The translations under genes were made by a program, and so were the position numbers. Positions 31,510 to 45,683 of a stretch of DNA of 52,313 nucleotides are shown piece after piece; position 1 is the stretch's first letter; the number at the start of each line of letters is the position of its first letter. The notes under the pieces were generated by a model, which saw only the letters and a program-made list of their open reading frames with translations, was not told where the DNA came from and ran no database searches. The DNA is taken from assembly GCA_017470945.1 (NCBI GenBank), contig JAFUXH010000047.1, forward strand, positions 1-52,313. The letters are read 5' to 3'. The DNA comes from Clostridia bacterium. GTDB taxonomy: Bacteria > Bacillota > Clostridia > Christensenellales > Aristaeellaceae.

Positions 31510-31554
31510 ATAACGCTCGGCGTCTTTCCCTTCGGGAGCCGCCGAGACGGAGAA

Positions 31555-33114: not shown

Positions 33115-33177
33115 ATCATACCTCCGGCTTTTTCCGCAGGCGAGAAAAGCGCGTTCTGATTTCGCGCGGATCGCACG

Positions 33178-33293
33178 AAAAAAAGACGCACAACGCTTCC
33201 CAGGCCTGCCTTCGGGCACGCAAAACAAAGGATGATCAGCATCCCGTTTTCCGCGCCGCTGTTATAAAAGGACAGGTCATGCGTTGTACATCT
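33178..33293 (-). promoter_or_regulatory. Probable transcription attenuator in the ABC-F leader
   Basis: Minus strand: a 13-nt arm AGATGTACAACGC (33293-33281) pairs with GCGTTGTGCGTCT (33196-33184; two G-U pairs), followed by seven T (33184-33178). The 84-nt loop contains smaller hairpins such as TGCC/GGCA. The upstream arm lies inside the short leader ORF, so a ribosome stalled there would block terminator formation. The ABC-F ATG is 63 nt beyond the T-run. Confidence 0.62.
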
Positions 33294-33309
33294 TTTCACC
33301 CCTTTCCAT
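33277..33309 (-). CDS. Leader peptide of the ABC-F gene
   Basis: ATG at 33309 encodes MERGEKMYNA and stops at TGA (33279-33277). A second in-frame ATG gives just MYNA, preceded by AGGGGTG at suitable distance. GGAGGT lies before the first ATG, but the best promoter would start transcription at about 33314, which favours either leaderless use of the first ATG or the shorter MYNA version. The codons TAC-AAC-GCA form part of the terminator arm. Confidence 0.5.
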   Translation of the reverse strand: MERGEKMYNA

Positions 33310-33320
33310 TCGATACCTCC

Positions 33321-33349
33321 ATCATACAGGAAAGAGGACAAAAATGCAA
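33321..33349 (-). promoter_or_regulatory. Promoter of the ABC-F leader and gene
   Basis: Minus strand TTGCAT (33349-33344), 17-bp spacer, TATGAT (33326-33321). Confidence 0.65.
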
Positions 33350-33381
33350 GACATTTTTTCAAGCGGATCGATCAGCCTGCT

Positions 33382-34155
33382 TTACACGAATTCCCCGGTG
33401 GTTTTGGGCAGGTTCAGGAACTCAATGAATTCCTTGATATGGGCGTCCCAGAAATCCCAGGAATGGGCGCCGGGATCCTCCACATAGGTGTAATCGAAGG
33501 GGTTGCCGGGCAGGGCGGTAAAGAAATCCCGGGTGGTATGGGCATCCTGAAGCAAAAAGTCGCTGTCGCCGCAGGCGTGGTAGATCCGGGGGCAGGGCAG
33601 CTTCTTTTTCAGGATCGTTTCCGCGCTGCCAAAGGGATCCTGATAGGTGCCCTTTTGTTCACCTTCCCCGTAGGACAGCAGGAATTTCCGTCCCTCATGC
33701 AGGGAACCGTGCGTATTCACCGCGCCGGCGGACAGGCAGCCGATGGCGCTGTATTTTTCAGGATTGCTCAGGCCGATCGCCATGCTGCCGGCCCCGCCCA
33801 TGGATAAGCCGGCGATGAAATTATCCTCCCGCCGGGTGGAAAGATTCAGCATCTTGGGCAGCGTTTCAGGCAATTCGCGGGATATGTAGGTATAGAATTT
33901 CATGCCGTGGGCCATATCGGTGTAGCTGCTGTTGTGGGCGGAGGGCATGATCACTGCCAAGCCGTAGGGGGCGGCGTAGCGCTCCACGTTGGTTCGGCGC
34001 ACCCAGTCGGTATAATTGCCGTTGGCGCCGTGCAGCAGCCACAGCACCGGCACCTTGCGGGCCTGCGCGGGGTTTTTGTACTGGGGCAGGATGGCGTTGC
34101 AGGTGACGCACATACCCAGCGCCTGGGAAAAGAAATGAATTTTAGCCAGCGCCAT
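33382..34155 (-). CDS. Alpha/beta-hydrolase esterase, EstA/FrmB-like (second copy)
   Basis: A 257-residue cytoplasmic esterase of the esterase D/acetyl-ester hydrolase type. The oxyanion region is WLLHGANGNYTDW, the nucleophile Ser lies in GLSMGGAGS, the acid is probably in CGDSDFLL, and the catalytic His is in DPGAHSWDFWD. It begins 1 nt after the upstream paralogue, and the two share the block RRTNVERYAAPYGLAVIMP / RRTSIERYAAEKGLAVIMP, so they arose by tandem duplication. The substrate is unknown; acetylated sugars are one possibility. Confidence 0.85.
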   Translation of the reverse strand: MALAKIHFFSQALGMCVTCNAILPQYKNPAQARKVPVLWLLHGANGNYTDWVRRTNVERYAAPYGLAVIMPSAHNSSYTDMAHGMKFYTYISRELPETLPKMLNLSTRREDNFIAGLSMGGAGSMAIGLSNPEKYSAIGCLSAGAVNTHGSLHEGRKFLLSYGEGEQKGTYQDPFGSAETILKKKLPCPRIYHACGDSDFLLQDAHTTRDFFTALPGNPFDYTYVEDPGAHSWDFWDAHIKEFIEFLNLPKTTGEFV

Positions 34156-34156
34156 G

Positions 34157-34954
34157 TTATTGTTCCTCCTTTCCCAGGGGCAGCCAGTTCAGCACGGTTT
34201 GGATCTTTTGATCCCAGTACATCCAGCTGTGGATGCCGGGGGATTCCTCGTACGTGAGGTCCAGGCCGACGGACAAAAGGTGATTTTTCAATTTCACATT
34301 GGCGGCGTAGAGGAAATCCTCCGTGCCGCACCACATGTAGAATTTCACCGGCGGCTTTTGCCCGCCGGCGGCGTAATCGTCGGCGGCGGCGAACAGATCG
34401 TCGAAGGAGCCCGCGATGCCGTCCAGATCGCCGAAAATATCCTGCCAGAACGCCTTGTTCCGCAGGCTTTTTTTGTCGCCGGCCAGGGAAGCAACATCGG
34501 CCACGGAGGACAGGCCGGCGGCGCAGGAAAAGGTATCATACCCCCGCAGGCCGCATTTCAGCGCGCCGTAGCCGCCCATGGAAAGGCCGGCCACGAAGGT
34601 ATCCTCCCGGCGCGGGCTCAATTGCGGGAACAGGGCCCGGCAGGTGGCGGGCAATTCCCGGGTGATGAAGGTCCAGAAAGCGTCGCCTAATTTGGCGTCG
34701 GTATAAAAGCTCAGATCGGCGCAGGGCATGATCACCGCCAGGCCCTTTTCCGCCGCGTAGCGCTCGATGGACGTGCGGCGCAGCCAGATGGTATGGTCAT
34801 CGCTCATGCCGTGCAGCAGGTACAGCGTGGGGCAGACCCGGCTTTTGCTGCCGCCCATGCCGATCATGCCCTTTGTGTCCTCCGGCAGGACGGCCAGAAA
34901 ATCCACCTCTCTTTCCAGCACCTGGGAGGAGATGGTGATATCGATCAGTGCCAA
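34157..34954 (-). CDS. Alpha/beta-hydrolase esterase, EstA/FrmB-like (first copy)
   Basis: A 265-residue paralogue of the next gene. Motifs: TLYLLHGMSDDHTIWLRRT, nucleophile GLSMGGYGALKCGL, acid in CGTEDFLY, and His in SPGIHSWMYWD. No signal peptide. Its ATG overlaps the end of the XRE regulator gene by 10 bp, and a GGAGG site is present, so regulator and both esterases form one operon. Confidence 0.86.
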   Translation of the reverse strand: MALIDITISSQVLEREVDFLAVLPEDTKGMIGMGGSKSRVCPTLYLLHGMSDDHTIWLRRTSIERYAAEKGLAVIMPCADLSFYTDAKLGDAFWTFITRELPATCRALFPQLSPRREDTFVAGLSMGGYGALKCGLRGYDTFSCAAGLSSVADVASLAGDKKSLRNKAFWQDIFGDLDGIAGSFDDLFAAADDYAAGGQKPPVKFYMWCGTEDFLYAANVKLKNHLLSVGLDLTYEESPGIHSWMYWDQKIQTVLNWLPLGKEEQ

Positions 34955-35307
34955 GGGGATCCCTCCTTTGATGATTCTTCGTCGTCTTCCGGCTCGTTCG
35001 GCAGCTCGGTGCCGTAATCCAATTCTTCCATTTGATCCCGCAGGTAGCGGGACAGGATGCGCAGCTCCTCCCGGGTATGCTGCCTGCCGGCCACGGTCAC
35101 GCTTTCCGCCAGCAGGTAATCGGTGCCGGTGCCCAGGAAATTGGCGATGTCCACCAGCGTATCCAGGCTGGGGATACGGGTGCCCCGTTCGATATTGCCG
35201 TAAAATGAAACCGAGATGTTGATGGCCTTCGCCACTTCCTCCTGGGACAGCTTTTTCATGCGCCGTTTGTAGCGCATCCGCTTGCCCATGGATTCATAAT
35301 CCACCAT
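34945..35307 (-). CDS. XRE-family transcriptional regulator
   Basis: A 120-residue protein with an N-terminal Cro/CI helix-turn-helix (~8-65: MRYKRRMKKLSQEEVAKAIN, then ISVSFYGNIERGTRIPSLDT). The C-terminal part is acidic (PEDDEESSKEG). ATG at 35307 is preferred because AGGAGGTG lies just upstream. It is first in an operon with two esterases and probably controls that operon or itself; the operator is not identified. Confidence 0.88.
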   Translation of the reverse strand: MVDYESMGKRMRYKRRMKKLSQEEVAKAINISVSFYGNIERGTRIPSLDTLVDIANFLGTGTDYLLAESVTVAGRQHTREELRILSRYLRDQMEELDYGTELPNEPEDDEESSKEGSPWH

Positions 35308-35348
35308 GCCGCGCACCTCCTGAACCATATCAGATTTCCGATGGAGAA

Positions 35349-35377
35349 ATGATATCACGATTGTCGAAAATTGTAAA
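35349..35377 (-). promoter_or_regulatory. Promoter of the XRE-esterase operon
   Basis: Minus strand TTTACA (35377-35372), 17-bp spacer, TATCAT (35354-35349). Confidence 0.72.
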
Positions 35378-35454
35378 GACGGGCCGCGCGGCCCCGGCCG
35401 ATCGAACGAGAAAGCGCGGCGAAAAAAGAAATGAAAAAAATTTTCGCAAATGGC

Positions 35455-35483
35455 TATACAAGCGGGGAAAGCTGTGCTATAAT
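35455..35483 (+). promoter_or_regulatory. Promoter of the zinc-ribbon gene, with a 130-nt leader
   Basis: TATACA (35455-35460), 17-bp spacer, TATAAT (35478-35483). The leader from about 35490 to 35621 is long for this organism's genes, but I could not match it to a known riboswitch class. Confidence 0.72.
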
Positions 35484-35621
35484 ACGCATCGAAGACCAAG
35501 CCAATGGATTTCAGGAAGTTCCTCCCGGTTTTGTTCATCGTCAAAGGACGGATGCGAGCCCTATGGAAACTGCCGGAACGTATCACTCGGTTTGGCGATA
35601 AAAATCAGGAGGTTTTGATCA

Positions 35622-35906
35622 ATGTATCAGGACAAGACGCTCACCTGCCGTGAATGCGGCAACGAATTCGTGTTCACCGCCAACGAACAGGCTTTCTACG
35701 CCGAAAAAGGCTTCCAGAATGAGCCCGGCCGTTGCCCCGCTTGCCGCGCCGCCCGCCGTCAGAACGGTGGCAACCGTGGCGAACGCCAGATGTATGACGT
35801 GGTGTGCGATGGCTGCGGCCAGCCCACCCAGGTGCCCTTCCAGCCCCGTGGCGATCGGCCCGTGTACTGCCGCGATTGCTTCCAGAAGAATCGTCCCCAG
35901 TATTGA
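35622..35906 (+). CDS. Small zinc-ribbon protein
   Basis: A 94-residue protein with two zinc ribbons: CRECGNEF ... CPACRAARR (~9-44) and CDGCGQPTQVPFQPRGDRPVYCRDC (knuckles near ~62-87). This pair is typical of a family of short zinc-ribbon proteins common in Bacillota and of unknown role, perhaps nucleic-acid or ribosome binding. AGGAGG precedes the ATG. It is monocistronic, with a strong promoter, a long leader and a terminator. Confidence 0.85.
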   Translation: MYQDKTLTCRECGNEFVFTANEQAFYAEKGFQNEPGRCPACRAARRQNGGNRGERQMYDVVCDGCGQPTQVPFQPRGDRPVYCRDCFQKNRPQY

Positions 35907-35916
35907 TTCACGGATG

Positions 35917-35950
35917 GAAAACGGTCAGGCGCAACGCCTGGCCGTTTTTT
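35917..35950 (+). terminator. Intrinsic terminator after the zinc-ribbon gene
   Basis: A GC-rich stem of about 13 bp (AACGGTCAGGCG with CGCCTGGCCGTT, one G-U pair) with a short loop and a run of T. Confidence 0.9.
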
Positions 35951-35989
35951 GATTTGCTGAAGCACGATTTCGCGGCGCAAAAACATGAC

Positions 35990-36018
35990 TTGCCAGGTAT
36001 TTACTTTTATGGTATAAT
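35990..36018 (+). promoter_or_regulatory. Promoter of the DtxR-type regulator
   Basis: TTGCCA (35990-35995), 17-bp spacer, TATAAT (36013-36018), 83 bp upstream of the ATG. Confidence 0.78.
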
Positions 36019-36101
36019 GCAATCGCAGAGGGGAAATGAATAAAAGGCGAAAGGCAAGGGGGCAAATTCCCCCTGAACATGCGACAAGGAAAGGAATCAT
36101 C

Positions 36102-36467
36102 ATGAATATTCACGAATCGGCGGAAGATTACCTGGAAATGATTTTAATGCTCAAGGAGCAAAAGGGCTATGCCCGCTCCATTGATATCGCCGCGGGGCTG
36201 AATGTGACCAAGCCCTCGGTCAGCTTCGCCATGAAGCGCCTGCGGGAAAACGGCTATATCACCATGGATGAGGATAATTATATCTCCCTGACCGATATGG
36301 GCCGGGAAATCGCCGAACGGATCTATCACCGCCACCGGGTGCTCACCAAGGCGCTGATCAAAATCGGCGTGGATGAAGCCATTGCCCGGGAGGACGCCTG
36401 CAAGGTGGAGCACGATATCTCCGAAGAATCCTTCGCGGCTATTTTAAAGCTGGTGGGCGAGGCGTGA
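36102..36467 (+). CDS. DtxR/MntR-family metal-dependent regulator
   Basis: A 121-residue repressor with an N-terminal winged helix (ESAEDYLEMILML, NVTKPSVSFAMKRLRENGYI) and a dimerisation domain; the SH3-like third domain is absent. Likely metal ligands are Asp9, Glu12, Cys100, Glu103 and His104 (motif CKVEHDIS). Cys at this place is more like DtxR/IdeR (iron) than MntR (manganese), so the metal is uncertain. AAGGAAAGGA precedes the ATG. No metal transporter lies beside it. Confidence 0.85.
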   Translation: MNIHESAEDYLEMILMLKEQKGYARSIDIAAGLNVTKPSVSFAMKRLRENGYITMDEDNYISLTDMGREIAERIYHRHRVLTKALIKIGVDEAIAREDACKVEHDISEESFAAILKLVGEA

Positions 36468-36505
36468 CGAAAACCCGGGAAGGAAAATTTTTTTCGATTT
36501 AACTA

Positions 36506-36534
36506 TTGACAAACGTATCAATTTGGCCTATAAT
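36506..36534 (+). promoter_or_regulatory. Native tRNA-Pro promoter, now in front of a truncated tRNA
   Basis: Consensus TTGACA (36506-36511), 17-bp spacer, TATAAT (36529-36534), 23 bp before the tRNA fragment. Confidence 0.85.
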
Positions 36535-36557: not shown

Positions 36558-36596
36558 CTGGGTGTAGCGCAGCTTGGTAGCGTGCTTGAATGGGGT
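36558..36596 (+). repeat. Left attachment site: 5' half of tRNA-Pro
   Basis: These 39 bp are identical to 41070-41108, covering tRNA-Pro(GGG) from its first base through the anticodon loop. The 3' half is missing here. This is the left direct repeat of the integrated element. Confidence 0.9.
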
Positions 36597-36597
36597 A

Positions 36598-36617
36598 GGC
36601 GGGGCTGCCGCCCCGCC
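36598..36617. other. Perfect GC hairpin next to the left att repeat
   Basis: GGCGGGGC (36598-36605), 4-nt loop, GCCCCGCC (36610-36617), starting two bases after the repeat ends. A T-run is lacking. Confidence 0.7.
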
Positions 36618-36631
36618 AGAATGTGTACTAA

Positions 36632-36659
36632 AAACCGTGGTTTTTCCACGGTTTATTTT
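36632..36659 (+). terminator. Terminator between the tRNA fragment and the integrase gene
   Basis: A 9-bp stem AAACCGTGG/CCACGGTTT (36632-36640 with 36646-36654) followed by ATTTT. It should stop transcripts from the native tRNA promoter. Confidence 0.75.
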
Positions 36660-36717
36660 AATTTCAAGCGTTCTTGAATTGTCAATGATAATCTGACATT
36701 CAAGGACGCTGATTTTT

Positions 36718-37644
36718 ATGCGCATCAAGATTGAAAACCACCGCACTGCCGCAGAATGTTTTGAAGATTTCTTGCTAGCAAAAAAGGGGGCTGGCATAGC
36801 TGACAAGACGCTCAAAAGCTATGCGCAGCACTTCCATGCAGCAGGTAAATACATGGATTGGAACAAGCCTATTGATAAAATCGGCATGGGCGATATTAAC
36901 AATATGGTATCAGCCTTGCGTGACCGCAATTTATCGCCGCGCACCATTTCAACCTATGTCATATTCTGCAAAACATTCTTTTCATGGGCGCATAGCGAAC
37001 ACTTGTCGGCGCTTGTCGTGCCGCTATATAAGTGTGAGGATAGCACCAAGGAAACATACACCGATGAAGAATTGATTGCGCTGTTGAAAAAGCCTAACCT
37101 GCGCAAATGCCCCTTTTCAGAATATCGCAACTGGGTGATTATCAACTTCCTGCTTAATAGCGGATGCAGAGCGGCCACCATTCGCAACATTAAAATATCA
37201 GATGTGGATATTGCGGGCGGGCTGTGCTATTTTCGCCATACCAAGAATAAAAAGGCGCAAGTATCGCCCTTGTGCGCCGAAATGCGGGCTATCCTGCAAG
37301 AGTATTTGAAGATTCGCAAGGGCGCGGATGATGATTACTTGTTTCCCAACGAATTTAACAAGCAAATGCCCGAAAGATGTTTAAGCACCGCCATTCAACG
37401 CTATAATTTGTCGCGCGGCGTGCAGAAAACTTCAATCCACCTTTTCCGGCATACCTTTGCAAAAAAGTATCTGCTGGATTGCGGCGGCAATGCGTTTTCA
37501 TTACAAAAATTGCTCGGTCATTCCACGCTGGATATGACCCGCAAATACTGTGAGATTTTCAATTCTGACATTCTGCGCAATTATGATGAACATTCGCCCC
37601 TTGCCCAGCTTCAAACAAGCCGCAGCAAGCTAAAAATGCGCTGA
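36718..37644 (+). CDS. Tyrosine recombinase (integrase)
   Basis: A 308-residue phage-type integrase. N-terminal SAM-like core-binding domain ~5-105; catalytic domain ~110-300. The catalytic set is complete: Arg151 (NSGCRAATI), Lys in the HTKNKKAQ hairpin, His241/Arg244 (HLFRH), His268 (LLGHST) and Tyr277 (TRKYCEIF). AAGGA lies 11 nt before the ATG. It is located just inside the left att repeat, as expected for the enzyme that integrated this element. No excisionase gene is seen. Confidence 0.93.
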   Translation: MRIKIENHRTAAECFEDFLLAKKGAGIADKTLKSYAQHFHAAGKYMDWNKPIDKIGMGDINNMVSALRDRNLSPRTISTYVIFCKTFFSWAHSEHLSALVVPLYKCEDSTKETYTDEELIALLKKPNLRKCPFSEYRNWVIINFLLNSGCRAATIRNIKISDVDIAGGLCYFRHTKNKKAQVSPLCAEMRAILQEYLKIRKGADDDYLFPNEFNKQMPERCLSTAIQRYNLSRGVQKTSIHLFRHTFAKKYLLDCGGNAFSLQKLLGHSTLDMTRKYCEIFNSDILRNYDEHSPLAQLQTSRSKLKMR

Positions 37645-37752
37645 TGCTGCCGCTTGCCCCTCGGCGTGTCGCGCTCCTCCGCCTGTTTGACCTTGTTCTC
37701 CCGATGAAAAACCGACCCTCCAGCAAGTCACTTTAAGGCTCGTTTTGAGCGC

Positions 37753-37788
37753 AAAAAAATCCCCGCCGCCCTGTGAAGGGAGGCGAGG
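37753..37788 (-). terminator. Terminator of the membrane-protein cargo gene
   Basis: An interrupted GC-rich stem (37761-37772 with 37777-37788; two mismatches) followed on the minus strand by seven T. The stretch 37645-37752 holds no gene that I can see. Confidence 0.7.
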
Positions 37789-37798
37789 ACGCATGTAT

Positions 37799-38677
37799 TT
37801 ATTTACCGATTATAATTCCTTCTTGCTCAAGAGCATCTTTTGCACCTTGAAAACTATCATGACAGCTTACGCACATTCCGCTTTTCGCAATGCTCATATA
37901 GTTTCCGCCTGAATCGCCAGCATAATAAGTTTTTCCACAAACTGAGCATGTTAGGCTATGTCTATTGCTGCTTCCAGTAGGAGCTAATCCACTTGGATTC
38001 ATTAAAGCAATTCCAACGATTACAAATGCTATAATACCAATAATATGGTAAGGTCGTTTCTTTATTCGCGTTACTATGAGCTCGATAGACAAACCGATTA
38101 AGAGCGGAGTTATAACATATACTGTTCCCGCTCTATCCGATATATTTATAAAGCAGGAAACAAGAACGCCCACTACAACCATACCAAGCATACATTTATA
38201 AAGTAGACTCTTTAATTCTTCTCCGTAATCGCCATACTTTTTATGAACAATGAAATACAGCACCGCCTGTCCAAGCAGAAACACGGCCCATACCTTACTA
38301 AATGCCATTACTGGCATAATCCCGAAAACCGCAACTGCTGCCAATACGATAGGCACAATAATTGAGACAAGAAGTAATGCGTTGAATACCTTTATGAATT
38401 TTTCATCGGTCTTTTTTGAATCGGTTGATTTTGTATTTCCTCGTTTTTCCTTTTGCCGCTTCTTTAGTTCCTGCCAAGCATCTTCACCCATAACTTTCCT
38501 TGCATACTGATTACTAAAATGAATAAGTAAAGCAAGGTATAAAATATCCAAAGCAATCCCTACAATGTACATCCAGGAATACTGTTGTAATCTGGCAACT
38601 GTTAATCCTTGCTGCTGGTAAAACTCTGGATTTGAAGCGATTTTATTAGGCCAAGTTATGTAGTCTGATACAATCAT
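37799..38677 (-). CDS. Membrane protein with C-terminal zinc-binding motif, unknown function
   Basis: A 292-residue protein I do not recognise. There are about six hydrophobic segments: one near 34-54, then several between ~100 and 235. Residues ~70-95 are a Lys-rich cytoplasmic loop. The C-terminus carries C244xxC247 and C269xxC272-His273, suggesting one zinc ribbon. The gene is strongly AT-rich compared with all neighbours and runs against the other element genes, which suggests separate acquisition as cargo. No clear ribosome-binding site precedes the ATG, so the N-terminus may be cut by the junction at about 38680. Confidence 0.65.
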   Translation of the reverse strand: MIVSDYITWPNKIASNPEFYQQQGLTVARLQQYSWMYIVGIALDILYLALLIHFSNQYARKVMGEDAWQELKKRQKEKRGNTKSTDSKKTDEKFIKVFNALLLVSIIVPIVLAAVAVFGIMPVMAFSKVWAVFLLGQAVLYFIVHKKYGDYGEELKSLLYKCMLGMVVVGVLVSCFINISDRAGTVYVITPLLIGLSIELIVTRIKKRPYHIIGIIAFVIVGIALMNPSGLAPTGSSNRHSLTCSVCGKTYYAGDSGGNYMSIAKSGMCVSCHDSFQGAKDALEQEGIIIGK

Positions 38678-39202
38678 AAGTATTTGGGCGTCCTGGAATC
38701 AAACGGTTATGTTGTTTGGAAACATGGCAATGTGTATGATTTTTATACCACGCCCCGACCCGCGAATGAGCGCACCGCCCCGAAAAGCCATGCAGAAGGA
38801 TTTAATTTTGACGATGAACAGCCATTCGCCGCGCAAATTCCGCAGGACAAACCCCACACGGCGCAACAACATGAAAAATCCGCATTGCAAACGAAAACAC
38901 CGCCCAGCGAACAAGCCCAGCCGCAGGAAGAACAGCCTGATTCGCCCGCCAATATAGAAATAGATAATAAATATCATATAGATACCGATAAAGATATATC
39001 AACAGATAGCGGGGCGCTCCGCGCCCCTACGCCCGCCGCTGACGCGGCGTGCGCTCCAACAGGCAAAGTAATTGAATTTCATATCCCCAACCCATTAACG
39101 CCAGAACGGCGCAAGCCCATTGAAAAGCCCAAGCCCTTTGCATTTATGGATGATGATTTATTCAATAGAACAGACCCCGAAACAGGCGAATATGTTTTCT
39201 AA
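38669..39202 (+). pseudogene. 5'-truncated gene of the element, possibly replication-related
   Basis: The frame is open from 38669, but the only possible start (TTG 38684) lacks a ribosome-binding site and the protein begins in what reads like the middle of a domain (YLGVLESNGYVVWKHGNVYD). The rest is a disordered Gln/Pro/Glu-rich linker followed by a C-terminal motif PERRKPIEKPKPFAFMDDDLF. This layout suits the tail of a plasmid or phage replication/HTH protein whose 5' part was lost where the membrane-protein gene now abuts. The assignment to replication is a guess. Confidence 0.45.
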
Positions 39203-39390
39203 CGGCGCAAGCCGCTAAATGGTATGCCATCCGCGCGGCGAACCGCGCAGCCATGCCGCGCCGCCCAGCGAACAGCGCCCACAACATTCTTACCTCTTGT
39301 TCCTGCCCTGCCTCTTTGCTCTTGCAATGGTAGCGCCATGAGAGCAAGAGCCAATAAAAAATGCTTGCGCTGAACATTCGCCCACAAACG

Positions 39391-39435
39391 ATTAAAACGG
39401 GGCATTGCATGCCAAATTCAGCACAAAATGCCCCG
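39391..39435 (-). terminator. Terminator of the RHH/coiled-coil pair
   Basis: Stem CGGGGCATT/AATGCCCCG (39398-39406 with 39427-39435), followed on the minus strand by TTTTAAT. The stretch 39203-39390 contains a further inverted repeat (GCTCTTGC with GCAAGAGC) and no gene. Confidence 0.7.
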
Positions 39436-39460
39436 CTTATTACTTCTTGCTATTGAATCC

Positions 39461-39748
39461 CTATGTAAACGCTTGTGCAAATTCTTTTCCCGCCTGCGTC
39501 GCTTCGTTGTTAATATCGCGCAATAGCGCATCAGCCGTTTCACGTTCATACTCTTGCCGCGCGGCGGTTTCCGCAAGTTGAATTTTTCTATCCAGCACGG
39601 ATAGCTTGATTTCATAATCAGCCTTATTCCACTCCCGCCCTACATCGTCCATCAAATAGCCATACTGTTTGTATAGTCTATCGTTGCGGTTCATCAATTC
39701 ATTACGTTCTTGCCGCAAATGATTCAGCTTGTCCATTGCTTTTCCCAT
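39461..39748 (-). CDS. Small coiled-coil protein of the element
   Basis: A 95-residue highly charged helical protein (DKLNHLRQERNELMNRNDRL, then YEIKLSVLDRKIQLAETAAR), probably a coiled coil. The family is not recognised. AAGGA lies 9 nt before the ATG at 39748. It overlaps the end of the RHH gene by 47 bp, so the two are co-translated. It resembles accessory proteins found beside plasmid copy-control or mobilisation genes, but no function can be given. Confidence 0.6.
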   Translation of the reverse strand: MGKAMDKLNHLRQERNELMNRNDRLYKQYGYLMDDVGREWNKADYEIKLSVLDRKIQLAETAARQEYERETADALLRDINNEATQAGKEFAQAFT

Positions 39749-39896
39749 TGTTGCACATCCTTTCCGTTTCGCGGCCAATAAGCCGCCTAATAACGCCCGA
39801 CATTGTATTATAGGTTTCCTTTGCCAACGCTTGCAGCGCGGCGTATTCAGCCTGTGAGAGCCTTACAGACACAGTTGTCATTGAATCGCTCAACAT
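39702..39896 (-). CDS. Ribbon-helix-helix (CopG/Arc-type) protein
   Basis: A 64-residue DNA-binding protein. The strand VSVRLSQAEYAAL and helices AALQALAKETYNTMSGVIRRLI match the RHH pattern of CopG, Arc or mobilisation accessory proteins. Two starts are possible (39896, or the ATG five codons later that begins MTTVSVRL); neither has a good ribosome-binding site. Likely roles are self-regulation, copy control or binding an origin of transfer. Confidence 0.65.
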   Translation of the reverse strand: MLSDSMTTVSVRLSQAEYAALQALAKETYNTMSGVIRRLIGRETERMCNNGKSNGQAESFAART

Positions 39897-40113
39897 TGCA
39901 CCAACTTTCTATAATTTACTTCACTATTGTTGAAAAAGGCGGTTAATACATTGACTGCTCTTGTCCTTGTCCGTCTTTCAAAAATTTTTCATCACTTCGC
40001 GGGAGCATGCGCCACACAAACGCCATTTGCAGAACAAAAAAGTTTTTGTCCCGAAATAGGCCGTTCCCCCTGCATATCCCATTCCGCGCCGCGCATTGCG
40101 CAGCAGAAAACAA

Positions 40114-40173
40114 GCGTATCAAATACTATACCTTGTGATACGCTCAAAAACCGCACCATTTTGCGTATCACAA
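40114..40173. promoter_or_regulatory. Res-like inverted repeats upstream of the serine recombinase
   Basis: GCGTATCA (40114-40121) and TGATACGC (40136-40143) make a 30-bp dyad. GCGTATCACAA (40163-40173) is the exact complement of TTGTGATACGC (40133-40143). The remaining parts of 39897-40266 contain only the recombinase promoter and no gene. Confidence 0.5.
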
Positions 40174-40211
40174 ACTATAAAAACTAATTTTGAAACGTTG
40201 CAAAATTAGCA

Positions 40212-40240
40212 TTGACTTTTTGATGCATTTATGGTACACT
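40212..40240 (+). promoter_or_regulatory. Promoter of the serine recombinase
   Basis: TTGACT (40212-40217), 17-bp spacer, TACACT (40235-40240), 26 bp before the ATG. Confidence 0.72.
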
Positions 40241-40266
40241 ATACTTGTCGAAAGGAAGTGTATCAA

Positions 40267-40818
40267 ATGGCTAACATCAAGTATGTCCGCGTCAGCACCA
40301 CCGAACAGAACACCGCAAGGCAAGAAACAGACCGCGCGGCGTATGACCGCATTTATATTGAAAAGGCCAGCGGCAAGAATACTGACCGCCCACAATTAAA
40401 AGCCATGCTGGATTATGTGCGTGAAGGGGATGTTGTAACCGTAGAAAGTTACTCGCGCCTTGCCCGTGATACACGCGACCTCTTGAATATCATTGATGTT
40501 CTGAATAAAAAGGGTGTGGCGTTCATCTCGCAGAAAGAGCAGATTGACACATCAACCCCAGCGGGGCGCTTCATGCTGTCCGTGTTCGCAAGTCTGGCGC
40601 AATTTGAGCGCGAACAGATTTTAGCCCGCCAAGCGGAAGGAATCGCCATAGCAAAGCAAGAGGGGCGCATGGGACGGCCTACAATCGCGCCTTGTGATAA
40701 CTTCAATGCTATTGTTCAAGAGTGGCAAGCGGGCAATATAACCGCCGTAGAAGCCATGAAGCAAGCAGGATTGACAAAAGCCACATTTTACCGCAAAGTA
40801 AAGGCTATGAACAACTAA
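40267..40818 (+). CDS. Serine recombinase (resolvase/invertase)
   Basis: A 183-residue small serine recombinase. The catalytic domain contains YVRVSTTEQN with nucleophile Ser10 and Arg8, then SRLARDTRDLLNII and FERE. The C-terminal helix-turn-helix is GNITAVEAMKQAGLTKATFYRKVKA. AAGGAAG precedes the ATG at 40267. With the inverted repeats just upstream it probably forms a resolution system such as those that keep plasmids monomeric, which would support a plasmid origin of the element. Invertase activity is an alternative. Confidence 0.92.
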   Translation: MANIKYVRVSTTEQNTARQETDRAAYDRIYIEKASGKNTDRPQLKAMLDYVREGDVVTVESYSRLARDTRDLLNIIDVLNKKGVAFISQKEQIDTSTPAGRFMLSVFASLAQFEREQILARQAEGIAIAKQEGRMGRPTIAPCDNFNAIVQEWQAGNITAVEAMKQAGLTKATFYRKVKAMNN

Positions 40819-40951
40819 ACGATTCGCCCGCCGCTGACTTGATTGCCAAGCGACGGGCGCTCTTGTGCTATCCTCTGGAAACGCCCGCCAGCATTACGTT
40901 TTGGCAAAATTAGGAAGAAAAAATTTAACCCGAAAACATGCTTTTTAGCTA

Positions 40952-40980
40952 TTGACATTCGTATATCGTTGTGCTATAAT
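40952..40980 (+). promoter_or_regulatory. Element-borne promoter for the rebuilt tRNA-Pro
   Basis: TTGACA (40952-40957), 17-bp spacer, TATAAT (40975-40980), 89 bp before the tRNA. It resembles the native promoter at 36506-36534, including a shared AGCAC after the -10. The region 40819-40951 holds no gene. Confidence 0.82.
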
Positions 40981-40997
40981 TTAGCACGTTGTTGATG

Positions 40998-41036
40998 ATT
41001 CAAGCACGCTGGCGGGCAGAAATTCAAGCACGCTGG
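40998..41036. repeat. Integrase-type direct repeats at the right end
   Basis: Two exact 15-bp copies of ATTCAAGCACGCTGG (40998-41012 and 41022-41036). The first 12 bp occur inverted in the tRNA anticodon arm (41092-41103 and 36580-36591), and ATTCAAGGACGCT (36698-36710) is a one-mismatch copy beside the integrase gene. Confidence 0.75.
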
Positions 41037-41069
41037 ATGCTAAAATGCTTGAAGAATCACGGTTTTTAT

Positions 41070-41146
41070 CTGGGTGTAGCGCAGCTTGGTAGCGTGCTTG
41101 AATGGGGTTCAAGAGGCCGAGAGTTCAAATCTCTCCACCCAGACCA
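41070..41146 (+). tRNA. tRNA-Pro(GGG)
   Basis: 77 bases including an encoded CCA. Acceptor stem 41070-41076 with 41136-41142; D arm 41079-41095; anticodon stem 41097-41101 with 41109-41113; loop ATGGGGT with anticodon GGG at 41104-41106 and G37; T arm 41119-41135. Bases 41070-41108 form the right att repeat, so the 5' half and the promoter are contributed by the element. Confidence 0.95.
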
Positions 41147-41148
41147 GA

Positions 41149-41174
41149 AAAAGTCCGAGAAATCGGGCTTTTTT
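41149..41174 (+). terminator. Terminator after tRNA-Pro
   Basis: Stem AGTCCGA/TCGGGCT (41152-41158 with 41163-41169, one G-U pair), GAAA tetraloop, followed by T. Confidence 0.85.
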
Positions 41175-41281
41175 GTTTTCATTTTGTGGCTTTGCGGCGA
41201 TGGATCAGGCGAAGCAAGCCCCGCAGGCCCCGGGGCGCACGGATACAGATGATTCGCATGGACATAATGAATTTCTCCCTT

Positions 41282-41473
41282 CTATTTTCTCATCAAGAAA
41301 AGGCCACTCAAGATCAGCGCCGCCCCCAGCAGCGACATCCAGGCCCAGGTGGGCACGCACAGCAATATCACCAAAATGCCTGCAAATACCAACGCACCGC
41401 CCAGGATTTTCAGCGCCATGCTGCCGCTTGCGGGGTAGCATTGGGTGCGCACGGGCTCCCATCGAAGAGGCAT
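41282..41473 (-). CDS. Small membrane protein, unknown
   Basis: A 63-residue protein: a 20-residue polar N-terminus (MPLRWEPVRTQCYPASGS) and two hydrophobic helices (ILGGALVFAGILVILLCVP and MSLLGAALILSGLFLM). GGGAGGTGA lies before the ATG at 41473. No family is recognised. It is divergent from the WG-repeat gene; no gene is seen between it and the tRNA. Confidence 0.6.
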   Translation of the reverse strand: MPLRWEPVRTQCYPASGSMALKILGGALVFAGILVILLCVPTWAWMSLLGAALILSGLFLMRK

Positions 41474-41538
41474 GGTTTTGTCACCTCCCTTTCCGCAGTG
41501 TATGCTGCCGAACGCCCCTTCATGACCGGATTCTTTCA

Positions 41539-41567
41539 TTGACACTTTTCTTGTTATATGGTAGAAT
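41539..41567 (+). promoter_or_regulatory. Promoter of the WG-repeat gene
   Basis: TTGACA (41539-41544), 17-bp spacer, TAGAAT (41562-41567), 33 bp before the ATG. Confidence 0.82.
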
Positions 41568-41600
41568 TTGCAAGGATTTGGAAAGAAAGGGAATATACGG

Positions 41601-43229
41601 ATGAAACGTTTTTTGGTTGTACTTTTGTTGCTGGTTCTGGCGCTGCCTTCCTTTGCTGTTGCGGAGGAGGAAGGACTTCGGGTCATGAACCTGAAAGGAT
41701 ATGACAACGGCATGTTCCTGGTTCGTTTTTCGGATACGGATCGGGAGGGCGTGATCGATGAAACCGGTAAAAAGATCATGGAAGCGCCGGAAGATTATTA
41801 TTTGCAACTTAAAGATGTGCATACATCCAAAACCGAACATTCCCTGAAGATTTTTGTGGATGATAAGGCCGCCGTTGTGAGCACCTACAGCAATCGCACC
41901 GGCCAGCAGCAGTACGGCCTGATCAACAAAAAGGGTGAAATCATCTGCGAATGTCAGTTTGATAGCATTGATTCCTTCTATAACGGCATCGCCGTGGTCC
42001 GCTCCGGTGAAAAATACGGCCTGGTGAATACCGCCGGGAAGGTGATCAGCAAGCCCCAGTGGGATTATATCCGGGATTTCGCCGACGGCGAGGTGACCGT
42101 GGCCTGCAAAAATGATAAATACAGCATCCTCAATAAGAGCGGCAAGGTGATCAGCAAAAACTGGCAATCGGCGTTGGAGCCTCAGCATGGCTACGTGGCC
42201 GTGAAAAACAGCAAGGGCTGGGGCCTGATCGACAGCAAGGGCAATCAAGCGGTCAAGTGCCAGTATACCTCCATCGTCATGCTTGGCAACAATCTGTTTG
42301 GCGTGCAGAACCGCAACAACAAAAACATCTATTGGTACGCCCTGATGAACCAGAAGGGCAAGCTGCTGACGGATTTCAAATATGAATTCCGGGCATTCAG
42401 CGACGGTGTCAGCATCGTGCATTATCGGGGTGGCATGGATTTGGGATACGACGGCGCCATGGATACCAAGGGCAAGGTGAACGTGTCCTTCGGTGAAAGC
42501 TCCAAATTCAACGTCAGCGATTATAAAAACGGCATGGCGCTGATCAAATACAACAACTCGAATTCCAAGAAAGCTACCTGGGGTTATAAAAACAAGAAGG
42601 GCAGCTGGGTCATCCCGCTGAAAGAACGCACCTTTGAACCGGATTACAATGCCTGGGTCAGCAGCAGCCTGATCAAGGTGCACACCGTGGGCACTGATTA
42701 CAGCAATACCAAATACGGCCTGATCGACAAATCCGGCAAAACCGTCGTGAAGGTGCAGTATAAATCTATTGACAGCTTCAAGGACGGCTTGGCCGTGGTC
42801 CGCAACAAAAATGATCTGTACGGCTTCATCAACACCAAGGGCAAATTGGTGGTGGCCTGTAAGTGGAAATACGCTTCTTCTTCCGATCAGCGCAATGGCC
42901 TGATGGTGGTGAAGGACGAAAATTATCAGGCTGAGTGTATCAATAAGAGCGGCAAATCGATCCTGAAAGGGTACGATTCCATCTTCATCGGCGACAATGC
43001 GATCGCCGCCAAAAAGAACGGATATCTGTACCTGTTCACCCTGAAGGGCAAGGCCATCCCCGTTGCAGCACCGGACCCCATCACCGTCGAAGCCCCGGTC
43101 ACGGAGGAAGCGCCTGTGACGGAGGAAACTCCCACCACCGAGGAAACCCCCGCTGCGGAGGAACCCTTCGAAACCCCCGAGCAACCGACGGAAACCACCG
43201 AGCCCGAAATCACGGAACAGGCGGCGTAA
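41601..43229 (+). CDS. Secreted WG-repeat protein
   Basis: A 542-residue exported protein with signal peptide ~1-21 (FLVVLLLLVLALPSFAVA). Residues ~30-485 hold a series of WG (KWG) beta repeats, each with a core like YGLINKKGEIICECQFDSI or YGLVNTAGKVISKPQWDYI. The C-terminal ~50 residues are a low-complexity tail of Thr/Glu/Pro repeats (APVTEEAPVTEETPTTEE), which may be a flexible wall-spanning or surface segment. No LPxTG motif is present. The ligand is unknown. It is monocistronic, with a strong promoter and terminator. Confidence 0.88.
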   Translation: MKRFLVVLLLLVLALPSFAVAEEEGLRVMNLKGYDNGMFLVRFSDTDREGVIDETGKKIMEAPEDYYLQLKDVHTSKTEHSLKIFVDDKAAVVSTYSNRTGQQQYGLINKKGEIICECQFDSIDSFYNGIAVVRSGEKYGLVNTAGKVISKPQWDYIRDFADGEVTVACKNDKYSILNKSGKVISKNWQSALEPQHGYVAVKNSKGWGLIDSKGNQAVKCQYTSIVMLGNNLFGVQNRNNKNIYWYALMNQKGKLLTDFKYEFRAFSDGVSIVHYRGGMDLGYDGAMDTKGKVNVSFGESSKFNVSDYKNGMALIKYNNSNSKKATWGYKNKKGSWVIPLKERTFEPDYNAWVSSSLIKVHTVGTDYSNTKYGLIDKSGKTVVKVQYKSIDSFKDGLAVVRNKNDLYGFINTKGKLVVACKWKYASSSDQRNGLMVVKDENYQAECINKSGKSILKGYDSIFIGDNAIAAKKNGYLYLFTLKGKAIPVAAPDPITVEAPVTEEAPVTEETPTTEETPAAEEPFETPEQPTETTEPEITEQAA

Positions 43230-43242
43230 CCGCATCAACAAA

Positions 43243-43277
43243 GCCCGTCAGATTATCACGTCTGACGGGCCGCTTTT
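43243..43277. terminator. Terminator between the WG-repeat and PHP genes
   Basis: A perfect 10-bp stem GCCCGTCAGA/TCTGACGGGC (43243-43252 with 43261-43270), followed by CCGCTTTTT; mainly for the plus strand. Confidence 0.85.
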
Positions 43278-43290
43278 TATTATTCTTGGT

Positions 43291-43992
43291 TTACTTTGGA
43301 GAGTCGATCCACCGCAAAAACGCGGCCACGCTTTTTTCCGGCAGGTGCAGCACAGATTCCTTTTCCAGTATATCGCCCAGATAATGCGCGTCGGAGGAGT
43401 GCAGCACGTGCTTGTTTTCCAGGGCTTCCATGGGGCAGGGCAGGTGCCGCCAAACCTCCACCGTGGGGAAGAAAGGCTCCTTGGGCATTATGCCCAGGTT
43501 GATGAGCAGCCCGTTGCTGCCCCGGTTGATGTGGGCGGGCACCGGCACGCCGCCATAGGCCCGCACCCGGGCAGCCGCCTCGGCCAAGGGCAGGTCGGTG
43601 GCGCCGATGAGCAGGGCGTCCTCCTCGCCGATCACGTTGTCATCCTCATCGACGATCCACTGATCGCCAAACAGGGATGGCTTGTTTTTCCGGTTGGGCA
43701 GGTGCTCCCGCAGCATATCGCCAAAATCCACCGCCGCCTCCACGGAAGGGAAGTAGCCCAGCATGTGTACCTCCTCCCGGGTGGTGATTTCCATGCCGGG
43801 GATCAGCAGGATGCCGTACGCGTCGGCCACCTTTTGGGCGGTGGGCAGGTTGCGGGCGGCATTGTGATCCGATATGGCCACCATATCCAGCCCCTTCACC
43901 ACCGCCATGCCCAGGATGTTGGCGGGGGTCATATCGTTGTCCCCGCAGGGGGACAGGCAGGTGTGGATATGCAGATCGGCAAATAACTCCAT
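43291..43992 (-). CDS. PHP-domain phosphoesterase
   Basis: A 233-residue PHP-fold protein. Metal motifs: DLHIHTCLSPCGD, ISDHNAARN, GMEITTREEVHMLGYF and SSDAHYLGDI. PHP proteins hydrolyse phosphoesters, such as pAp or nucleotides; the substrate here is not readable. It is the last gene of a five-gene minus-strand operon with an [FeFe]-hydrogenase-like sensor, starting 5 bp after the second DRTGG gene. The set suggests redox-linked signalling rather than DNA repair. Confidence 0.85.
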   Translation of the reverse strand: MELFADLHIHTCLSPCGDNDMTPANILGMAVVKGLDMVAISDHNAARNLPTAQKVADAYGILLIPGMEITTREEVHMLGYFPSVEAAVDFGDMLREHLPNRKNKPSLFGDQWIVDEDDNVIGEEDALLIGATDLPLAEAAARVRAYGGVPVPAHINRGSNGLLINLGIMPKEPFFPTVEVWRHLPCPMEALENKHVLHSSDAHYLGDILEKESVLHLPEKSVAAFLRWIDSPK

Positions 43993-43997
43993 AGCGT

Positions 43998-44345
43998 TTA
44001 TTCCGCCTTCTCCGGCACGCCCTGGGCCGCCATGCGGCCGCAAATGGCGTACGCCGTCAAGGGGCTTTTCAGGATCACCAGGCCCTCATCGGCGGCCTTT
44101 TCAAGGCTTTCCTGGGGCATGTCGATGTTCTCCGGCAGGATCACGCAGGCCATATCGGCCAGCACCGCCACCGCCACCACGTTCATATGGGTCTGCACGG
44201 TGACCCAGGCCATGCCATCCTCCCCGTGGGCCATGACCCAGGACAAAAGATCGCAGGTGTAGCCGCAGGTGATTTCCCGCTCCATGGGCAGGGTGGGGGT
44301 TTGATTTTCCGCCTCGATCAGGGCGGCAAGCGCAGCAATCGTCAA
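43998..44345 (-). CDS. DRTGG-domain protein (second copy)
   Basis: A 115-residue protein resembling the DRTGG domains beside [FeFe]-hydrogenase operons (ITCGYTCDLLSWVMAHGEDG, ADMACVILPENIDMP, ADEGLVILKSPLTAYAICG). The start is TTG at 44345 with GAGGAGG 8 nt upstream. It resembles the first gene of the operon in the C-terminal half. The domain probably binds a nucleotide or small ligand; its exact role is unknown. Confidence 0.72.
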   Translation of the reverse strand: MTIAALAALIEAENQTPTLPMEREITCGYTCDLLSWVMAHGEDGMAWVTVQTHMNVVAVAVLADMACVILPENIDMPQESLEKAADEGLVILKSPLTAYAICGRMAAQGVPEKAE

Positions 44346-44361
44346 GGGTGATTCCTCCTCG

Positions 44362-45666
44362 TTATTCGCGTTTGGTTTGGGCCAGCTCCACCATCTGCTG
44401 GGCCATGACCTTCAATTGGTCCTTCAATTTATGAATACAATCCATTTCACCGCAGAAGCCCCGCACGATATCCTCGGCGAAGGTGCGGCAGGTGGGGGAG
44501 CCGCAGGAGCCGCAGTCGTACCCCGGCAAATCTTCCAGGATCTGGTTCATGCGCTCCATTTTCTGCATGGCCACCATCAAATTATCATCCAGCTTCATGA
44601 CGCTGTTGGGCTCGATGGGCACGTCGTTGTACAGGGGATATTTGGTCATCATGGAGGCGGGCACGTCGTCCACCGGGTGCACCTTTTTCCCGCTGTCCAC
44701 CAATTTGCGCACGGTATTCTTGGCCACGTAATTGTTTTCAAAGGCCAGCGGCCCGCCCACGCAGCCGCCCATACAGGCGTTGCCCTCGAAAAACACCAGG
44801 TCGTTCAATTTATTGTTTTCAATTTCTTCCAGCACCCGGATCACGTTTTGAATGCCGTCCACCGCCAGGGAGTTTTCGGGGCAGACCGCGCTGGCCTCCC
44901 CGCTGCTGGACGCCCAGCCGATGCCGTAGGATGTCGACGTGGCGGGGGTGGGGTTTTCGGTGTATTTACCGATGTGGGGCAGCAGCATGCCGTAAATTTC
45001 CATCATGGAAATGGCGCCGTCCACCGCCGATTTATTCTGGCCGATGGGGGAGCGGATGGCCGTCATCTTGGCCGGGCAGGGGGTGATGAAGAAAATGCCC
45101 ACGTCCTCCGGGTCGCACTGGTGCTTGCGGCAGAATTCGTCCCGGGCGATCATGGCGGCCACCTCCATGGGCTGGCGCACATCCACCACGTTTGGCAGCA
45201 GATCGGGGAAGCGCACCTGGATCAGACGCACCACCGCCGGGCAGGCGGAGGAAATCAGGGGCTTGGGCAGCCCGGGCTCCCGCAGCTTTTCGTGAATGGC
45301 CCGGCTGACCACGTCGGCCCCCCGGGCGACCTCGTACACTTCCTCAAACCCGATGCATTTCAGCGCGTCCAGCACCTGGCTGATGGATTTCAAATTTTTG
45401 TATTGCCCGTACAGGGAAGGGGCGGGAATGGCGATGGTGTGGGCATAGCCCCGAATGGCGCTGATATCGTCGGTCACCGCCACTTTGGCGTGGTAATCGC
45501 AGATGCGGATGCATTCGCCGCAGTCGATACAGCGCTCGTCGATGATGTGCGCCCGGCCCCCGCGCACCCGGATGGCCTCGGTGGGGCAATGCTTCAGGCA
45601 GTTGGTGCAGCCCTTGCACTGGGTTTTATCCAGACGAACGGAATGATAGCGTGTGATAGGTTCCAT
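44362..45666 (-). CDS. [FeFe]-hydrogenase-like iron-sulfur protein, sensory type
   Basis: A 434-residue protein. N-terminal 2x[4Fe-4S] ferredoxin domain (CKGCTNCLKHCP, CIDCGECIRIC). The hydrogenase H-domain follows, with altered signatures: L1 ISSACPAV (Cys142), L2 TPCPAKM (Cys197) and L3 GNACMGGCVGG (Cys298, Cys302). The four H-cluster Cys ligands are present, but the Cys that normally donates protons is Ala141, as in HydS-type sensory hydrogenases. A C-terminal Fe-S domain reads YDCGSCGSPTC. No catalytic hydrogenase or maturase gene is near. Most likely a redox or H2 sensor. Confidence 0.82.
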   Translation of the reverse strand: MEPITRYHSVRLDKTQCKGCTNCLKHCPTEAIRVRGGRAHIIDERCIDCGECIRICDYHAKVAVTDDISAIRGYAHTIAIPAPSLYGQYKNLKSISQVLDALKCIGFEEVYEVARGADVVSRAIHEKLREPGLPKPLISSACPAVVRLIQVRFPDLLPNVVDVRQPMEVAAMIARDEFCRKHQCDPEDVGIFFITPCPAKMTAIRSPIGQNKSAVDGAISMMEIYGMLLPHIGKYTENPTPATSTSYGIGWASSSGEASAVCPENSLAVDGIQNVIRVLEEIENNKLNDLVFFEGNACMGGCVGGPLAFENNYVAKNTVRKLVDSGKKVHPVDDVPASMMTKYPLYNDVPIEPNSVMKLDDNLMVAMQKMERMNQILEDLPGYDCGSCGSPTCRTFAEDIVRGFCGEMDCIHKLKDQLKVMAQQMVELAQTKRE

Positions 45667-45683
45667 AGCAGCCCGCTTTCCGC

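Follow-up and report, generated by a model that had tools for sequence, protein, structure and literature searches.

A small integrative element in tRNA-Pro(GGG) that very probably restores the 5' half and the promoter of its target gene

Introduction

A passage of one review states that invaded tRNA genes keep their original promoter, with very few exceptions (PMC8371274). In the window, by which we mean the whole stretch of 52,313 nucleotides analysed, a mobile segment separates a truncated tRNA-Pro from an intact one, and each copy is preceded by a promoter of its own. The question is which half of the intact tRNA and which of the two promoters belong to the host, and which came with the element. 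The assembly that holds the window is a draft with an estimated contamination of 8.4%.

The integrated element and its target

Comparison of the window sequence with itself gave two identical repeats at 36558-36596 and 41070-41108 (39/39 bp). The single tRNA found in the whole window by ARAGORN is tRNA-Pro(ggg) at 41070-41146, with the anticodon at position 35, so the repeat corresponds to nt 1-39 of the tRNA. Its final base is also that of the anticodon loop (nt 33-39, ATGGGGT, 41102-41108). A chance origin was rejected because a match of 39/39 bp ending at the loop edge is far beyond chance in 7 kb. The original prediction of exact 39-bp tRNA-Pro repeats around an element of about 4.5 kb was thus borne out, up to the 3' edge of the anticodon loop. 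The flanking repeats also support the bounds proposed for the element (36558-41146), but the right end at 41146 takes in the native 3' half of the tRNA; the mobile segment is 36597-41108 (4,512 bp), and any phase within the 39-bp repeat is equivalent. The junctions and promoters are as follows.

36506..36534, + strand: native tRNA-Pro promoter, TTGACA-17-TATAAT, now upstream of the truncated tRNA (12/12 consensus; matches the tRNA-Pro promoter of the empty-site congener G015)
36558..36596, + strand: attL, the native 5' half of tRNA-Pro left stranded, nt 1-39 up to and including the anticodon loop (exact 39-bp repeat; native side by comparison with G015)
40952..40980, + strand: element-borne promoter now preceding the intact tRNA-Pro (12/12 consensus, TG before the -10)
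41070..41146, + strand: attR, the intact tRNA-Pro(GGG), nt 1-39 from the element side and nt 40-77 native (ARAGORN, repeat and comparison with G015)
41102..41108, + strand: anticodon loop, presumed crossover (overlap) segment, placed from the repeat ending at its 3' edge; left counterpart 36590-36596

A tyrosine integrase stands at one end of the element and a serine recombinase at the other, with these features between the repeats.

36598..36617, + strand: GC-rich hairpin right after the truncated tRNA, on the element side (fold -19.7 kcal/mol, z -3.9)
36632..36654, + strand: terminator-like hairpin in the interval between truncated tRNA and integrase (sequence and fold)
36718..37644, + strand: tyrosine integrase, 308 aa (PF00589, E 3.6e-24; 71% identical to the integrase of a second element, L031)
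37799..38677, - strand: cargo ORF, 292 aa, no assigned family (weak matches, none above a curated cut-off)
38684..39202, + strand: cargo ORF, 172 aa (no family match)
39461..39778, - strand: cargo ORF, 105 aa (no family match)
39702..39896, - strand: small ribbon-helix-helix protein, 64 aa (PF01402, E 1.4e-4, above cut-off)
40267..40818, + strand: serine recombinase of the resolvase/invertase type, 183 aa, at the distal end, frame open from 40231 (PF00239, E 4.2e-41; L031 counterpart 83% identical)

The 64-aa ribbon-helix-helix protein is weakly NikA-like, below cut-off. Matches of the six ORFs to PHROGs comprise an integrase, an invertase-type recombinase, a repressor-like protein and one unknown family. 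Family profile searches gave no relaxase match among the six ORFs, and no phage structural or packaging genes were recognised in them; an integrative mobilizable element and a prophage were rejected on these respective grounds. The element is a tRNA-gene island of the tyrosine-integrase type: it encloses a PF00589 integrase between an intact tRNA at one end and a collinear fragment at the other, and a relative has the site unoccupied. It belongs to the 5'-fragment class of such islands, as the displaced 5' part (36558-36596) lies upstream of the intact tRNA (41070).

Empty-site comparison and polarity of restoration

The genome G015, from the same genus as the window, has the tRNA-Pro locus without the element. 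Its contig C172 matched the left flank of the window (76% over 1,894 bp), and in its contig C74 one match covered the left copy's promoter together with its 5' half (89% over 91 bp) and another the right flank (83% over 3,164 bp, with right-flank proteins alike up to 92% over 450 aa). The tRNA-Pro of G015 is intact, with a left-type promoter immediately upstream. The locus is divided between two contigs, which have 26 bp in common close to their ends (by eye) before each continues into other sequence, so the empty site is seen piecewise. Since G015 agrees with the left side of the window in left flank and promoter and with the right side in right flank, the native promoter is the left one, and the 5' half of the intact tRNA, its leader and its promoter came with the element. 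Both assignments, together with the native origin of the 3' half, had been proposed from the window itself, and the empty-site comparison suggested at that time has now been run: at this locus G015 speaks against a native origin of 40952-41069.

A second locus, L031, from another genus, has the same plan, including a hairpin between truncated tRNA and integrase. Its 5' half at 7843-7883 adjoins the integrase, and its intact tRNA lies at 13256-13331. Two relatives of L031, G424 and G428, match its right flank, and both are outside the 2/308 family genomes in which the integrase is present (E <= 1e-60). The tRNA leader of G424 matches the left side of L031 (83% over 52 bp), and for G428 the likeness of the leader is visible by eye in the alignment only. 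The unoccupied site of L031 is represented by G424 and, less strongly, by G428. The window and L031 are the only two element-bearing loci of the 5' type found.

From these sequence comparisons we conclude with high confidence that a small integrative element in tRNA-Pro(GGG) restores the 5' half and promoter of its target and strands the native ones. The tyrosine integrase of the element would carry out integration into tRNA-Pro(GGG), with a crossover in the anticodon loop, as the end of the repeat suggests. As comparison with the element-free congener shows, the native promoter and native 5' half are stranded on the integrase side, and an intact tRNA is rebuilt at the far end from the element-borne promoter, leader and 5' half and the native 3' half. 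Pattern searches of viral contigs for the attP junction of an excised circle (one exact pattern) and for the right arm gave 0 matches each. As the element supplies the front half together with its promoter, the host tRNA-Pro probably now runs under a borrowed, element-supplied switch.

Both promoters have 12/12 sigma-70 consensus positions and 17-nt spacers, and their sequences agree at 72% over 46 bp. Among 60 relatives searched, the element promoter has its best non-self match in the native tRNA-Pro(GGG) promoter of the congener G010 (E 1.7e-6 for one genome). This match lends some support to the original suggestion of capture from another host's tRNA-Pro locus; the element promoter probably derives from the tRNA-Pro locus of a related host.

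Putative integrase sites at the element ends

A 12-mer occurs at both ends of the element, where the chance expectation is 0.002-0.010 matches per arm.

36668..36679, - strand: putative integrase site, left arm, one mismatch to ATTCAAGCACGC (12-mer scan)
36698..36709, + strand: putative integrase site, left arm, one mismatch to ATTCAAGCACGC (12-mer scan)
40998..41009, + strand: putative integrase site 1, tRNA leader, 60 nt from the tRNA start (exact ATTCAAGCACGC)
41022..41033, + strand: putative integrase site 2, tRNA leader, 36 nt from the tRNA start (exact ATTCAAGCACGC)

The 12-mer is also present in the integrase-proximal arm of both elements (window and L031), and it is nearly absent from 17.7 kb of flanks (scanned at 30000-36500 and 41147-52313). 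It is probably the site of the integrase. Across the family, motifs of the integrase leader covary with the target tRNA (555 vs 486.5 +/- 8.1, 0/2000 permutations, a significance that is overstated because the permutation ignores the relatedness of the integrases). The own half-site ranked first in 21/38 loci, 10 of the 21 being tied with another. When integrase leader and distal arm were compared for shared sequence in nine 3'-type elements, five (L042, L043, L048, L049 and L065) were above all 40 shuffles and four (L033, L037, L039 and L051) were not. The match in L042 sits at the start codon and not in the repeats.

The integrase family

Eighty loci of the integrase family were collected and 50 were examined for an upstream tRNA; an intact tRNA ends <=400 bp from the integrase match in 38. 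The 28 loci of the first homologue set outside the 50 comprise 27 without any tRNA and L077, whose tRNA is far from the integrase. Ten of the 38 loci (L033, L037, L039, L042, L043, L048, L049, L051, L060 and L065) show the usual polarity, with a displaced block reaching from nt 13-32 to the 3' end of the tRNA 4.7-8.6 kb downstream. Outside these ten, 3' fragments are also present in L052, at a distance of 1.3 kb, and in L074, limited to nt 56-76. L072 was flagged for a 5' tRNA-Leu fragment and was not counted as 5'-type, because a separate intact tRNA-Leu precedes its integrase. No tRNA fragment pair was found in L100-L115. Plasmids and phages gave distant integrases only (<=33% identity among the 20 matches listed of each).

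In a quick tree of 45 integrases, with SH-aLRT support only, the window and L031 integrases are sisters (SH-aLRT 100). The pair is nested in a 28-row set (SH-aLRT 90, not starred), the other members of which are 3'-type or unassigned loci. L057 has an end branch of 10 and is probably a misread frame. As the rest of the family restores the 3' half although its integrases are oriented to the tRNA in the same way, the polarity of restoration probably switched from 3' to 5' in the lineage leading to the window and L031, and the sister relation of the two 5'-type integrases suggests a single switch.

Site-bearing leaders without an element

A pattern search found site-bearing tRNA-Pro leaders in 6/300 family genomes (backward control 0), and the integrase is present in only 2/6 of them. 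A leader very like 40952-41069 precedes tRNA-Pro in G425, a genome of another genus without the element (93% over 127 bp). The leaders of the four integrase-free genomes are probably leftovers: 5'-type elements of several lineages would have entered tRNA-Pro and later lost their bodies through deletions, for instance between the two related promoters, while the leader and its integrase sites would have stayed because the tRNA depends on it. We give this account somewhat more credence than doubt. The outcome of the pattern search, the missing integrase and the sites, which mark both element ends and are nearly absent from the flanks scanned, favour it, as does the geometry kept by two-site leaders: the distances to the tRNA are 60/36 nt in both the window and G425, 61/37 nt in G426 (2 and 1 mismatches) and 59/35 nt in L031 and G757 (1 and 0 mismatches in G757). 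The leader of G429 appears decayed and is shorter by the length of one site. G798 has a single site and 0.7 kb of upstream sequence. Against leftovers, the promoter of G757 seems native by its match to G810 (77% over 57 bp), so that a leftover would need its junction inside the leader. Moreover, none of the six element proteins has a match upstream in G425 (5.3 kb), G426 (15.2 kb), G757 (13.5 kb) or G429 (15.0 kb), and the similarity of G425 to the window starts only about 10 bp before the -35.

The near-identical leader of the element-free G425 means that part of the element leader could predate the element. It is conceivable, if unlikely, that the 12-mer pair belongs to certain host tRNA-Pro leaders and that an aberrant excision brought it into the element along with the promoter and the 5' half. 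The native-looking promoter of G757 with its array, the four array leaders without the integrase and the resemblance of the element promoter to native tRNA-Pro promoters of congeners would fit such a capture, but the same 12-mers stand in the integrase-proximal arm of both elements, the leader motifs vary with the target tRNA (with relatedness ignored), and the arrays are rare and patchy.

That the window instead holds an ordinary 3'-type element or a tandem duplication, with a foreign left fragment and a native right promoter, is very improbable and was rejected on G015, G424 and, less strongly, G428: the right-type leader of G425 and the likeness of the two promoters, as duplication could give, speak for it, but G015, of the same genus and with both flanks matching, has the left-type promoter before an intact tRNA, L031 repeats this with its own relatives, and the end of the repeat coincides exactly with the edge of the anticodon loop, with the integrase at the truncated end.

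Discussion

Under the preferred reading of 5' restoration, we tentatively hypothesize, with less than even confidence, that the integrase lineage switched from 3' to 5' restoration via a captured host tRNA-Pro promoter. Such elements may then form a one-way route of promoter and leader replacement, in which the site-studded leader outlasts the element, as in three genera besides that of the window.

Like the window element, the 3'-type relatives (among L032-L072) have a related integrase proximal to the tRNA and blocks whose start coincides with the anticodon arm or lies close to it; judged by eye, a C-terminus resembling a serine recombinase also closes L037, L042 and L043. The 3'-type elements bring along the 3' half, and the promoter upstream stays in place, whereas the window and L031 carry the 5' half and the promoter. 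As this reversed arrangement occurs alongside conventional elements whose integrases belong to the same family, it can be asked how polarity switches, whether a borrowed promoter alters the level of the tRNA and whether the host becomes dependent on it once the element is lost.

Insertion with a 5' fragment is a rare class that is already known, both from islands and from archaeal pTN3. In the Thermococcus pTN3/TKV4-type elements, as far as described in parts of two papers, attP and attB share 41 bp in the 5' half of tRNA-Leu, and a full-length tRNA is rebuilt yet cut off from its original promoter, as in the window (PMC5495485, PMC8371274). In those elements integration disrupts the integrase gene, and the integrase promoter is described as serving the tRNA (PMC5495485, PMC8371274). 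The window element, in contrast, keeps an intact 308-aa integrase frame at the other end and has a separate sigma-70 promoter before the tRNA. Of the 3,919 candidate islands counted in the consulted part of Islander, 3,760 have 3' fragments and 159 have 5' fragments (PMC4383910), in agreement with the original statement that most tRNA-integrating elements restore the 3' end. The 5'-fragment islands described there resemble the window, with a tyrosine-integrase island between an intact tRNA and an upstream displaced 5' fragment (PMC4383910). That class is known from its count in this part of the source (PMC4383910), whereas for the window element an element-free locus, a promoter exchange, a 3'-type sister family and array-only leaders are described here.

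Structure of the tRNA-Pro insertion

The original prediction of 39-bp repeats, an intact tRNA-Pro(GGG), two consensus promoters and an intervening 4.5-kb segment was confirmed in every part. The features at the locus are as follows:

36506-36534, left promoter
36558-36596, left 39-bp repeat copy
36598-36617, GC-rich hairpin immediately inside the left copy
36632-36654, terminator-like hairpin just inside the left copy
40952-40980, right promoter
41070-41146, intact tRNA-Pro(GGG)

The repeat corresponds to tRNA nt 1-39, its end coinciding with the 3' edge of the 7-nt anticodon loop. Because of the two hairpins, transcription from the old promoter would probably stop before the integrase. When the tRNA was searched against the window's genome (E <= 0.001), the sole match besides the 39-bp fragment was a tRNA-Pro with a CGG anticodon, which suggests a single GGG gene in this draft assembly. 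A tyrosine integrase of 308 aa adjoins the truncated tRNA end of the element and a serine recombinase the intact end. The remaining ORFs encode a 64-aa ribbon-helix-helix protein and three products without assigned function; neither a relaxase nor phage structural genes were recognised among the element's proteins. The first interpretation of the element is supported: very probably, its own 5' half and promoter rebuild the intact tRNA-Pro and leave the native left promoter stranded.

The left side had been claimed as native, and an empty-site relative of the same genus (G015) agrees. Its contig C172 matches the left flank (76% over 1,894 bp) and encodes the same DtxR-type regulator (84% aa), and contig C74 matches the promoter and tRNA 5' half (89% over 91 bp) and the right flank (83% over 3,164 bp). 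Its tRNA-Pro is intact, with the left-type promoter and leader upstream and a terminator resembling the window's downstream. This promoter and leader show the left side to be native and 40952-41069 foreign to the locus. The two contigs (loci L142 and L210) have 26 bp in common near their ends, by eye, followed by other, unrelated DNA; this looks like a separate insertion in G015 just upstream of tRNA-Pro, at the contig ends.

The original prediction further suggested that the element promoter was captured from another host's tRNA-Pro locus. With 40935-40999 as query against 60 relatives (E values for one genome), the best non-self match was the tRNA-Pro(GGG) promoter of a congener, G010 (80% of 54 bp, E 1.7e-6), followed by 36-bp matches in G016 (2.6e-4), G041 and G008 (both about 0.006); the G020 tRNA-Pro promoter matched weakly (0.047). 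These matches are consistent with capture from a related tRNA-Pro locus but are no proof of it.

A second case and the polarity of the integrase family

Searching one genome per species gave 67 relatives of the integrase. L031, at 71% identity the nearest of them, lies in a genome of the same family but another genus (G422, also G812) and has the window's layout: the 5' half adjoins the integrase and the intact tRNA lies 5.4 kb away. Its recombinase is 83% identical to the window's and its cargo differs. Two relatives, G424 and G428, both match the L031 right flank; the tRNA leader resembles the L031 left side at 83% over 52 bp in G424 and by eye only in G428. At E <= 1e-60, the integrase occurs in 2/308 family genomes, the window's and that of L031.

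The upstream-tRNA check took in 50 of 80 integrase loci from two combined searches. An intact tRNA ends <=400 bp upstream of the integrase in 38; the other 12 are L031, L038, L040 and nine viral contigs. At 10 loci, a block from nt 13-32 through the tRNA 3' end lies kilobases downstream. Targets include Pro, Thr, Lys, Val, Ala, Leu, Gln and Phe tRNAs. By these layouts, the rest of the family is of opposite polarity to the window and L031. In a quick tree, these two integrases are sisters (SH-aLRT 100) inside a 28-member set (SH-aLRT 90, not starred) in which none of the others is 5'-type; this suggests a single polarity switch, with the integrase keeping its side.

At L040 (1720-1970) and L100 (a viral contig), the tRNA-Pro 3' half stands alone before the integrase and non-tRNA sequence replaces the 5' half, as a circular attP form or truncated end would. 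L072 and L068 (7400-8000) carry a tRNA-Leu 5' half and, after about 150 bp similar to the DNA at the far tRNA-Leu of L072, an entire tRNA-Leu that differs slightly and stands before the integrase. The layout may stem from nested or tandem events, or from an element that brought a whole tRNA with it.

Putative integrase sites and the leaders that carry them

The motif ATTCAAGCACGC is the complement of tRNA nt 23-34. The right arm of the element holds two perfect copies (40998 and 41022), and the left arm two with one mismatch each (36668, inverted, and 36698); L031 carries two perfect copies on the right plus one on the left. The matches expected from shuffled arms number 0.002-0.010 at <=2 mismatches; the rest of the element has one two-mismatch match, and the 17.7 kb of flanks scanned has one match. 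Integrase leaders family-wide carry inverted motifs resembling the 5' anticodon half-site of the target tRNA, with a summed match of 555 vs 486.5 +/- 8.1 (reached in 0/2000 permutations, which ignore relatedness of the integrases). In 21/38 loci the own half-site ranked first (in a tie at 10 of these); most of the Leu group did not show this. We infer that the integrase binds these putative sites. At L032-L074, the inverted motifs lie between tRNA terminator and integrase start codon, change with the target's anticodon stem and are clearest for Pro GGG, Pro CGG, Thr, Val and Gln. Since they vary with the target and are often near the ribosome-binding site, the integrase may also regulate its own gene.

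One such site 25-50 nt before tRNA-Pro was found in 6/300 family genomes (backward control 0; a related screen 5/299): the window's, G812 (L031), G827, G780, G757 and G798. The integrase was not found in the last four in the screen of 308 family genomes at E <= 1e-60; these were equated with G425, G426, G479 and G530 by identical contig positions. In the window, L031, G425 and G426, the paired sites precede the tRNA by 59-61 and 35-37 nt, and the -10 precedes it by 88-89 nt; in G757, the sites are at 59/35 nt. Measurement of 23 further leaders gave 12-70 nt for 22 of them, shorter than these, and 92 nt for G004; none carries sites in that orientation at <=2 mismatches. The G425 leader is 93% identical to the window's over 127 bp, and that of G429 looks like a decayed copy.

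We slightly favour the reading that elements came and were lost while promoter and leader stayed. The hardest fact for a simple form of it is G757, where the array accompanies a native-looking promoter, so that the junction would have to fall inside the leader. That the element instead captured a native leader type is possible, though we hold it the less probable.

Immediately downstream of the same tRNA-Pro, L136/L166 (G426), L145 (G006), L146 (G013) and L169 (G798) carry other, distantly related integrases; in G426 and G013, 3' fragments of the tRNA follow after several kb. Thus, tRNA-Pro seems to be a target of invasion from either side. Of the family genomes that were compared, few pairs, even within a genus, have common genes around tRNA-Pro(GGG), and this neighbourhood therefore looks unusually unstable.

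Comparison with known systems

That most elements do the opposite, as originally stated, accords with the Islander counts, where 5'-fragment islands make up only 159/3,919 candidates (PMC4383910). Archaeal pTN3 has 41 bp in common with its tRNA-Leu site, and the rebuilt tRNA is parted from its promoter (PMC5495485). A review states that pTN3-like sites are tRNA 5' halves, that the integrase promoter serves these tRNAs, and that bacteria seldom show a comparable situation (PMC8371274, citing Williams 2002). The 5'-fragment class is therefore known and rare. A limited literature search, in other wording, turned up neither a polarity switch within a single integrase family nor leftover leaders. 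It is the 3'-type relatives and the array-bearing leaders in genomes without this integrase that set the present case apart from the known class.
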